This document shows positions 7,874 to 35,667 of a stretch of DNA of 57,776 nucleotides, one piece after another. The position numbers and the translations under genes were made by a program. The notes under the pieces are model-generated. The model searched no databases, had not been told where the DNA came from, and saw nothing but the letters and a program-made list of their open reading frames with translations. Numbering within the stretch: the first letter of the stretch is position 1; each line of letters begins with the position of its first letter. The DNA is from Streptomycetaceae bacterium (GTDB taxonomy: Bacteria > Actinomycetota > Actinomycetes > Nanopelagicales > Nanopelagicaceae), in NCBI GenBank assembly GCA_007280125.1, contig QYPT01000025.1, positions 1 through 57,776 of the forward strand, written 5' to 3'.

Positions 7874-8215
7874 TTAGGCCGCGTCGCTCTGATCCAAACG
7901 AGGGCGACCAACAGTTCGCTTGCGAGCAATGACAGATCCATCTTCGAACAACTCTCCGCCCCAGACTCCGCATGGTTCATTGCGAGAAAGCGCTGCATCT
8001 AAACATTGAGTACGCACTGGGCATGCACCACATAGCGACTTAGCAACGTTGATGATCTCGGCCTTATCCGAGAAGAAGATTTCTGGATCTGCGTTATGGC
8101 AAGGCAAGGTAAAGGCAATGTCGGATCCGTAAGCGCCTGTTACATCGCCTAATCCGCTCATCTGGCCATCTTGCGCCCAGCCTGGTACTAACAGTTCACT
8201 GAAGAGAACAGTCAT
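7874..8215 (-). CDS. whiB7: WhiB7/WblC-type transcription factor
   Basis: WhiB Cys motif (C-HN..., CGACPVRTQCLDAAL), EPCGVWGGELFEDG and C-terminal AT-hook RKRTVGRPR; ATG 8215 has AAGGAAGG SD, GTG 8224 is the track start. Confidence 0.9.
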   Translation of the reverse strand: MTVLFSELLVPGWAQDGQMSGLGDVTGAYGSDIAFTLPCHNADPEIFFSDKAEIINVAKSLCGACPVRTQCLDAALSRNEPCGVWGGELFEDGSVIARKRTVGRPRLDQSDAA

Positions 8216-8274
8216 TGTCCTCACCTTCCTTCTCTTTTATCTTTCTCTGTTTGGGTAGTTGTCGGTTGTATTAG

Positions 8275-8317
8275 GGAAAAGAAAAAGGGCCCGAATCCTT
8301 TGTGGATTCGTGGCCCT
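8275..8317 (-). terminator. intrinsic terminator/attenuator in the whiB7 leader
   Basis: Minus strand AGGGCC-A-CGAATCC-ACAAA-GGATTCG-GGCCCT followed by TTTTCTTTT; lies between uORF and whiB7. Confidence 0.85.
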
Positions 8318-8335
8318 TGGGGTCCTATCTCGGTT

Positions 8336-8485
8336 TTAACCGATTGGGCTCCAAGATGCCATCTCACCAAAGGCGGGATACCACGCTGTGCGCTTTGAGG
8401 CACGATTAGCTGTGGCTGCGTATGAATGTGAATGAAAAGAAGTCGCTGAAGGCGCAACTGCGAAAGTAGCTGTAAACAACTGCAT
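8336..8485 (-). CDS. whiB7 leader uORF, 49 aa (MQLFTATFAVAPSATSFHSHSYAATANRASKRTAWYPAFGEMASWSPIG)
   Basis: ATG at 8485 preceded by GGGAGG with 6-nt spacing; TAA at 8336-8338 lies inside a hairpin loop just upstream of the terminator. Confidence 0.75.
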   Translation of the reverse strand: MQLFTATFAVAPSATSFHSHSYAATANRASKRTAWYPAFGEMASWSPIG

Positions 8486-8594
8486 TTTGTGCCTCCCGTT
8501 TCTGTTTTTCATTTCTATACAAATCACGTGATCATTCAATCGCGTGAATGGCAAGGGTAAAGCAAAGGTTGATGATGATGCAAATGAATTATCA

Positions 8595-10265
8595 CTAACT
8601 GGTCAGTAACCCAGCCTCACGCAGGAATCGGCTCGGATTCTGACGATAACTCAGTGCTAAATGTGTCCGCGCACGCGTAACTCCAACGTAGAAGAGTCTC
8701 CGATCTTCCTCGACCGCGCTCTCATGCGTAGGCAGAGTTCCCTCATTTACTCCGATTAGAAAGACCTGCTCCCACTCCAAGCCCTTAGCCGCGTGAAGGG
8801 TTGCCAAGGTTGTTACGGGCATAACCGGTGGATTGTTCTGCTCGGCCCTATCTTCGAGTTCGCGCAAATATGTTCGCAACGTTTTAGGAGTGAATGCCGC
8901 ATCGGCATCGAGTTCGCGAGCCAAATGCATGAGCGCGGTAATCCCATCCGTGCTTTCACCGCTAATAAAAGGCTGCGAAATCGTGCGCAGTTCATCAAGC
9001 CAGGTAACTCCCTCTGTCGGAATTACAGATGCTCGTCGAATTTCCTTTAGAAAATCGCGTACATCAGTCCGCTCAAAGAAACGTTCGTTATTGCGTACTT
9101 GATAAGGAATCTGCGCAGCTGCACACGCACGAGCAAGCGTATTTAATTGTGCATTTGTTCGGGCTAGTACGGCTATATCTTGAGCAGCAATACCAGTTGA
9201 GGTCATAGCAATGATTGATTGCACGACTCCTGCAACTTCACTTGCTTCGTCCTTATATTGCGTTACTTCGGGCTTATTGCCATGGGGATTAAGCGCAACA
9301 ATTTCTTGACCCATTGCGCCACTTCGCAAGACGCTATTTGCAGTAGAGATGATTTCCGGCGTTGAACGATATCCAGTAGTCAAGCGAATAACTTGTGCCT
9401 CTGGAAATCGATGAGTGAAATTATTGAGAAATACGGGTGTGGCACCTGCAAATGAATAAATAGTTTGAGCAGGATCGCCAACAACACAAATTTCTTGGCG
9501 GTTACCCAACCAGGCATTGATTAATCGTTGTTGTAATGGCGAAACATCCTGATACTCGTCAATAGTGAAAAAACGATATTGATCATGAACTCTCTCGCGA
9601 ACTTCGCGCTCTTCTTCAATCATCGCGGTGGTTAAGAGCAAAACATCTTCGAAATCAATAGTCCGCTCTTGTCGTTTCAGGCTTTCGTATGCTTCATATA
9701 CCTGTGCAACTTGGCCTGGATTTATACGGTTTCGTTCGGCGCGAACTTTCGTCTCCTCCATGTAATCCTCAGGAGCAATCTGCGAAACTTTCGCCCATTC
9801 AATCTCGGAAGCGATATCACGAAGTAATTCGCGCGAAGTAATACTTAATGATGAGGTTAGTCCGGTGCGAGTAATTGCCTCAGTAATGAAGGCGGTCTTT
9901 GTTGTTAAGAGATCAGGCGTACGACCACCAAATACTTGTGGCCAAAAGAAGATCAATTGCTTGAGGGCTGCCGAGTGAATTGTTCGGGCCGCAACGCTAG
10001 GCACGCCTAATAATCGAAGCCTGGCGCGCATTTCTCCCGCTGCTCGTGCGGTAAAGGTTAGCGCTAAGACTTTCTGTGGATTCATCACGCCAATTGCGCT
10101 GGCATATGCAATGCGGTGAGTAATTGCTCGGGTTTTTCCTGTACCTGCGCCAGCAATCACGCAGACAGGTCCTCGCGAGGCAAGTGCGACTTCGCGTTGC
10201 TCATCATCAAGGGCAGCGAGAATTTCTTCTGCGCGGAGTTCGTTGGGTTCGTTTACGGCCTCCAA
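8595..10265 (-). CDS. uvrD2: UvrD/Rep-family DNA helicase, UvrD2-like
   Basis: AGAGTGKTRAITHRI Walker A, DEYQDVSPLQQRLI, VGDPAQTIYSFAGA; position next to whiB7 and nudC. Confidence 0.85.
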   Translation of the reverse strand: MEAVNEPNELRAEEILAALDDEQREVALASRGPVCVIAGAGTGKTRAITHRIAYASAIGVMNPQKVLALTFTARAAGEMRARLRLLGVPSVAARTIHSAALKQLIFFWPQVFGGRTPDLLTTKTAFITEAITRTGLTSSLSITSRELLRDIASEIEWAKVSQIAPEDYMEETKVRAERNRINPGQVAQVYEAYESLKRQERTIDFEDVLLLTTAMIEEEREVRERVHDQYRFFTIDEYQDVSPLQQRLINAWLGNRQEICVVGDPAQTIYSFAGATPVFLNNFTHRFPEAQVIRLTTGYRSTPEIISTANSVLRSGAMGQEIVALNPHGNKPEVTQYKDEASEVAGVVQSIIAMTSTGIAAQDIAVLARTNAQLNTLARACAAAQIPYQVRNNERFFERTDVRDFLKEIRRASVIPTEGVTWLDELRTISQPFISGESTDGITALMHLARELDADAAFTPKTLRTYLRELEDRAEQNNPPVMPVTTLATLHAAKGLEWEQVFLIGVNEGTLPTHESAVEEDRRLFYVGVTRARTHLALSYRQNPSRFLREAGLLTS

Positions 10266-35195: not shown

Positions 35196-35235
35196 GCGAG
35201 GGCCGCAGCCAATTGGTGCGGCCCTCGCGCTTTTG
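35196..35235 (+). terminator. Rho-independent terminator after ALDH
   Basis: CGCGAGGGCCGCA-gccaattgg-TGCGGCCCTCGCG then CTTTTG. Confidence 0.85.
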
Positions 35236-35250
35236 TTCTACAGTTGATTC

Positions 35251-35667
35251 GTGATCGATAACTTACCCTCGAGAGTTGATGTAACCGAAGAAGCTTGCGT
35301 GCTTCTTCGAAAACTAACAGCGATGCATGGGCCTTTAATGTTTCATCAATCCGGTGGTTGTTGTGATGGATCTTCACCCATGTGTTATCTGGCGGGCGAA
35401 TTTCGTGTTGGTGGGTCTGATGTTTTCCTAGGCAATTTAGTTGTTGATCAGATTGCTGAGCCTATTAAAGTGTGGATTTCACTTCCTCAATTTGAATATT
35501 GGAAACATACTCATCTCACGATTGATCTTGTACCTGGAAGAGGTGCCGGATTCTCTTTAGAGGCTCCAGAAGGCTTCCGATTTCTTATTAGGTCCAGACT
35601 CTTTACCGATGAGGAATGGGCTTTGTTAGAGAACTCTCCAGTGCTTACGGGAGCCTACGAAGGTTGA
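35251..35667 (+). CDS. DUF779 family protein (ALDH-associated)
   Basis: HGPLMFHQSGGCCDGSSPMCY; immediately downstream of ALDH. Confidence 0.85.
   Translation: MIDNLPSRVDVTEEACVLLRKLTAMHGPLMFHQSGGCCDGSSPMCYLAGEFRVGGSDVFLGNLVVDQIAEPIKVWISLPQFEYWKHTHLTIDLVPGRGAGFSLEAPEGFRFLIRSRLFTDEEWALLENSPVLTGAYEG

Follow-up and report, generated by a model that had tools for sequence, protein, structure and literature searches.

The leader of the whiB7/wblC gene on the stretch of DNA analysed here (57,776 nucleotides, hereafter the window) very probably works as a translation-stress attenuator, in which a ribosome on a short upstream open reading frame (uORF) would decide whether transcription stops before the gene or reads through into it. 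Attenuation of whiB7/wblC by a uORF has been published and is called typical for actinobacteria in passages of PMC10727445, PMC9618640 and PMC11550727, which cite Lee et al. 2022, and the original prediction was right to treat the ribosome-mediated mechanism as established in mycobacteria and Streptomyces. Judged by its sequence, the leader described here is a real, conserved and well-supported further case. It extends a switch sensing drugs and starvation, known chiefly from work on mycobacteria and Streptomyces, to freshwater actinobacteria with small genomes (the source draft genome is 1.86 Mb, with four WhiB genes); among the matches listed in the literature search, none dealt with whiB7 in this freshwater group. 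The comparison also supplies evidence for the exact pairings that exclude one another, a seed alignment of the element, an RNA without a match in Rfam, and an indication of which codons to mutate in testing the mechanism.

Comparison between genomes shows selection on the uORF, the terminator, pairing between the two, the promoter and the orthology of the gene. The idea of an intact attenuator, which had been drawn from the letters of this one leader, is now supported by codon-level selection, conservation of the reading frame, own-genus complementarity and a covariance-model match.

The whiB7 Locus and Its Promoter

On the minus strand, a uvrD2-like helicase gene is followed by a promoter, the uORF, a terminator (8318-8285, with a U tract reaching 8277) and whiB7 (Table 1). 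A NUDIX gene recognised by Pfam lies upstream of uvrD2, and the order NUDIX-uvrD2-whiB7 recalls that of the locus in M. tuberculosis. The assignment of a WhiB7-type gene from its GVWGGELF and GRPR motifs is borne out by searches with the product, which matches the WhiB domain (PF02467, E 1.8e-16) and has WhiB7 of M. tuberculosis as its top PDB match (7kif, E 1.1e-25); together with the UvrD-helicase and NUDIX-domain neighbours, this match identifies the gene as a whiB7 ortholog. The gene has its own Shine-Dalgarno (SD) region, as had been proposed. An NCBIfam search with two proteins returned no family for either. In one relative (L025, genome G006), the whiB7 match spans only residues 20-107 and contains in-frame stops, possibly from a frameshift or an assembly error, and the uORF and terminator there are intact.

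Table 1. Features of the whiB7 leader and its surroundings, in window coordinates.
Feature	Position	Strand	Basis or remarks
uvrD2-like helicase, upstream neighbour	8595..10265	minus	Pfam; start codon uncertain; upstream of whiB7 in most relatives
TGATAATTCAT, AT-rich, adjoining the -35 element on its upstream side	8584..8594	minus	AATTAATT-like in most genus members
-35 element TTGCAT	8578..8583	minus	genus comparison
-10 element TACCCT, TANNNT type	8554..8559	minus	19/19 genus members, spacer always 18
Hairpin TCACG-C-GATT-GAAT-GATC-A-CGTGA at putative transcript 5' end	8524..8547	minus	folding by inspection
uORF Shine-Dalgarno GGGAGG	8492..8497	minus	sequence inspection
uORF, 49 aa, MQLFTATFAVAPSATSFHSHSYAATANRASKRTAWYPAFGEMASWSPIG	8336..8485	minus	conserved in genus; pN/pS; whole-codon indels
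Strand 1, antiterminator arm GGC-AT-CTTGG	8351..8360	minus	uORF codon 42 (final base) through codon 45; pairing comparisons, folding
Small hairpin TCGGT-UAAA-ACCGA around uORF stop codon	8330..8343	minus	folding; other-family counterpart with covariation support
Strand 2, CCAAGGGCC, left part of terminator, target of uORF end	8312..8320	minus	own-genus complementarity, compensatory changes
Intrinsic terminator (predicted)	8277..8318	minus	-23.6 kcal/mol; arms nearly invariant in genus; equivalent in relatives
whiB7 Shine-Dalgarno region, AGGAAGGTGAGG	8219..8230	minus	AGGTGAG or near variant in most relatives
whiB7/wblC	7874..8215	minus	WhiB-type FeS activator, 113 aa, four Cys, GVWGGELF turn, GRPR AT-hook core

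A promoter of the form TTGCNN-18-TANNNT is common to all 19 genus members, here as TTGCAT-18-TACCCT (8583-8554). The position of the AT-rich stretch just upstream matches that of the WhiB7 box in its targets, as given in passages of PMC3905903 and PMC7157823, and the stretch is likely to be a WhiB7 autoregulatory box. Transcription would start near 8547, and a hairpin similar to that at the presumed 5' end folds, by inspection, in 16 of the 19 genus members, with stems that differ. In the window this hairpin holds most of the ATCACGTGAT palindrome (8532-8523), which had been placed at the likely promoter: the palindrome is indeed present, but the promoter lies upstream of it, and since in the genus alignment just one other genome, whose WhiB7 is identical, shares the palindrome, we rejected it as a promoter element.

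A uORF under Selection

The uORF has every part first ascribed to it, namely an ATG at 8485, a GGGAGG SD and 49 codons ending in SWSPIG; its TAA lies at 8338-8336, and 17 nt separate it from the terminator. Its C-terminus, KRTAWYPAFxxxATWSxIG, is nearly invariant across 20 same-genus genomes. In 19 genomes of the genus, pN/pS is 0.34 over the last 21 codons as against 0.62 over the remainder, and all length differences are whole codons, which together are evidence for translation and for selection that is strongest at the uORF end. We therefore take the leader to contain an SD-led uORF that is, on this comparative evidence, translated. The peptide had been called divergent, which is true of its N-terminal part but not of its C-terminal W-S-x-I-G, the family version of a W-S-P-P-V that is common across the class.

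At 8369-8393 (minus strand) and at the loci of the same genus (19 genomes), AAG, CGC and TTT codons are invariant including their wobble positions, and a TAT codon is nearly so. The near-fixed AAG, CGC and TTT codons sit outside the known pairing segment, upstream of strand 1, and are unexplained.

The Terminator and Its Conservation across the Class

Folding places a Rho-independent terminator between the uORF and whiB7, with a 5' arm AAGGGCC-A-CGAATCC (8318-8304), a loop (8303-8299), a 3' arm GGATTCGGGCCCTT (8298-8285) and a U tract TTTTTCTTTT (8286-8277). Of the 13-bp terminator originally described, the hairpin, the single bulge (an A) and the U tract are all present, but the stem has 14 bp. 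The uORF stop codon sits in the loop of the small TCGGT-UAAA-ACCGA hairpin, as had been noticed, and the leader as a whole folds more stably than all 200 of its shuffled versions (z -3.5). A search of the 4227 Rfam families gave no credible match, the best being a microRNA model at E 0.12.

Within the same family, 106 leaders had usable length and a terminator, and in 105 of these a frame stopped 5-45 nt ahead of the terminator. About 99 of the 106 share the arrangement, with the uORF stop 5-22 nt upstream of the terminator; seven, whose uORF was atypical or was miscalled by the automatic procedure, were excluded from the pairing test, leaving 99. In other families of the Actinomycetia, 57 of 59 leaders have a GGCC-type terminator and, 8-32 nt upstream of it, the end of an SD-led uORF, often W-S-P-P-V. 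A covariance model (R1) built from 30 leaders of other Actinomycetia families, with no member of the window's own family, matches the window leader over its full length (8359-8283, E 1.5e-6) and also matches most of 32 family loci, which points to homology in both sequence and structure with the RNA element of those families; it has no second significant match in the 57.8 kb window. Conservation of the uORF and covariation among relatives had been named beforehand as points on which the reading should stand or fall, and both were found.

Two genera of the family have whiB7-like genes with different short uORFs of 27-31 aa before a terminator (L114, L117 and L120), ending in ...FWYAMIPPTE or ...FWYGATPPTPEL; no uvrD2 neighbour was detected within the stretch fetched for these loci. 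The record L218, publicly deposited as Streptomyces griseus isolate MH-21oct19-64, clusters with freshwater actinobacterial MAGs, and its label looks wrong.

Pairing between the uORF and the Terminator

Three strands compete in the leader: strand 1 (8360-8351) within the uORF, strand 2 (8320-8312) in the left part of the terminator and strand 3 (8291-8285) in its right arm. Strands 1 and 2 differ between genera in compensatory sets (CTTGG/CCAAG, TTTGG/CCAAA, CCTGG/CCAGG and CCCGG/CCGGG), and the energy of their pairing is -22.2 within genera as against -18.4 (sd 0.71) when genera are permuted, with none of 20,000 permutations as strong. In 21-nt windows, own-genus pairing exceeds cross-genus pairing in 13 of 13 genera, whichever direction is taken; when the windows are lengthened, a single genus (g10) departs slightly from this, in one direction. 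In the window's own genus the difference is small (own -18.2, cross -17.7) because the genus is nearly invariant and the helix is shorter (GGC-AU-CUUGG). The adjoining 5-mer is fully complementary in 80 of the 99 leaders, compared with 9% for 5-mers elsewhere in these uORFs, and the outer extension of the helix, taken alone, has moderate support (191 of 20,000 permutations). An independent class alignment gave a covariation of 0.284 over the helix and the stop-codon hairpin, as against 0.180 (sd 0.015) in shuffled alignments and at most 0.204 when the pairing was slid. These comparative data support a three-strand switch in which uORF and terminator sequences would together form an antiterminator.

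Both halves of the alternative pairing first proposed, CTTGG (8355-8351) with CCAAG (8320-8316), are present, but that pairing is insufficient by itself as an antiterminator: its overlap is limited to basal stem bases, so most of the terminator can form alongside it, and it is the longer helix that excludes the terminator. A second proposed pairing, between the W-S-P codons and the terminator GGGC, did not survive comparison. UGGAGCCC:GGGC (GCCC:GGGC) is not conserved in the genus, where the codon after Ser is CCA, CCT, CCC, TCA, CTT, ACC, CAG or TTG, and it was rejected. In genus g17 (L035-L051), the uORFs contain an exact copy, up to 8 nt long (GGATTCGG), of the terminator 3' arm.

RNA or Peptide, and the Question of Chance

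The uORF end might instead be conserved for its peptide, with the C-terminal block (W-S-x-I-G, elsewhere W-S-P-P-V) acting as a nascent-chain arrest element that responds by a specific stall near the stop codon rather than by general slowing. Conservation of the uORF within the genus is highest in its last residues, and W-S-P-like ends are found repeatedly in the class, as such an element would have it. We nevertheless consider it improbable, since a stall at the last codons would put the ribosome over strand 1 and so favour termination, and since the Trp codon is dispensed with in several ways: it has become Arg CGG with a matching terminator change in one genus, it is replaced in genus g12 with pairing kept in another register, and Trp is lost in most of genus g16. 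RNA pairing explains the Trp codon changes better than a peptide does, and these changes, with compensation or kept pairing, argue that it is chiefly as RNA that the uORF end has been conserved. On balance we lean towards reading the W-S-P or W-S-x-I-G end as an RNA constraint whose codons are a decoy of the terminator 3' arm; in sister genera the decoy spans the whole 5' arm (GGATTCGG, an exact 8-nt copy in one genus), so that antiterminator strength would be tuned by lineage in streamlined freshwater actinobacteria.

That the leader should be no more than a housekeeping terminator behind uvrD2, with a chance frame before it, is scarcely credible, for although intergenic terminators are common and the uORF starts about 110 nt past the uvrD2 stop, the terminator sits after the uORF, about 280 nt past uvrD2, the uORF is under selection with its frame kept, the arrangement is conserved class-wide with pairing evidence, and WhiB paralogs lack it (none of 12 paralog leaders).

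A loose criterion is passed by 5 of the 41 ORF leaders in the window, whiB7 included; only two of the five, whiB7 and the gene at 35299, combine a terminator below -20 kcal/mol with an SD scoring 5/6 or more, and the gene at 35299 is preceded by an ordinary end-of-gene terminator. At loose thresholds the arrangement alone is thus not rare, and it is the conservation and pairing tests that carry the claim of an attenuator. A strong but ordinary terminator-like hairpin, GAGGGCCGC...GCGGCCCTC, follows a gene end at 35198-35236 (plus strand).

A Probable Kinetic Switch

The attenuator would work as follows. Transcription would begin near 8547 from an autoregulated promoter, and a ribosome would translate the uORF behind RNA polymerase. 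If it moved freely, it would cover strand 1 (uORF codons 42-45), strand 2 would pair with strand 3 and transcription would stop before whiB7. If a ribosome-targeting drug or a missing aminoacyl-tRNA stalled it before about codon 41, strand 1 would be free to pair with strand 2 before strand 3 had been made, which would open the base of the terminator and allow read-through into whiB7, and the WhiB7 product would then boost its own promoter. Induction by drugs and output through a regulon would be expected of such a switch.

Folding with a ribosome mask places the boundary at codon 41: the probability of the strand 1:2 helix is 0.91-1.00 with the A site at codons 26-40 (the upstream range scanned) and at most 0.06 from codon 41. 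In equilibrium folding of the window sequence the terminator wins in all cases, even with strand 1 free, so the switch would have to be kinetic, as in trp attenuation.

Relation to Known Attenuators

The mycobacterial whiB7 leader, a uORF with a Rho-independent terminator according to Dinan 2014 (PMC4128351) and to PMC9618640, which cites Lee 2022, resembles the one here in its length (about 330-350 nt), its SD-led, Ala-rich uORF with a terminator right after it, the AT-rich box by the -35 element and the complementarity of the uORF end to the terminator 5' arm. It differs in the peptide and length of the uORF and in its more GC-rich terminator stem, and strand 1 in the presumed mycobacterial loci is TCCGTGG in place of GGC-AT-CTTGG. 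With the Streptomyces wblC leader (Lee 2022, as cited in parts of PMC12421871 and PMC11550727) the present leader shares the order of parts, the terminator position and a W-S-P-like uORF C-terminus (WSDPA in presumed Streptomyces loci), whereas the Streptomyces uORF is longer and GC-rich, and in several sister genera of the present group the antiterminator takes in more of the terminator arm. In attenuators of the trp-operon type, too, ribosome position in a leader ORF selects between mutually exclusive RNA hairpins, but the present uORF has no run of one regulatory codon and would be a general translation sensor rather than one for a single amino acid.

In the sensing part of the uORF, Ala makes up 20.6%, against 11.7% in UvrD2, and Asp and Glu are nearly absent. 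In mycobacteria, WhiB7 has a reported role in alanine starvation (cited in a passage of PMC10727445), and by analogy this, with the Ala-rich sensing part, makes it plausible that the uORF could also sense Ala.
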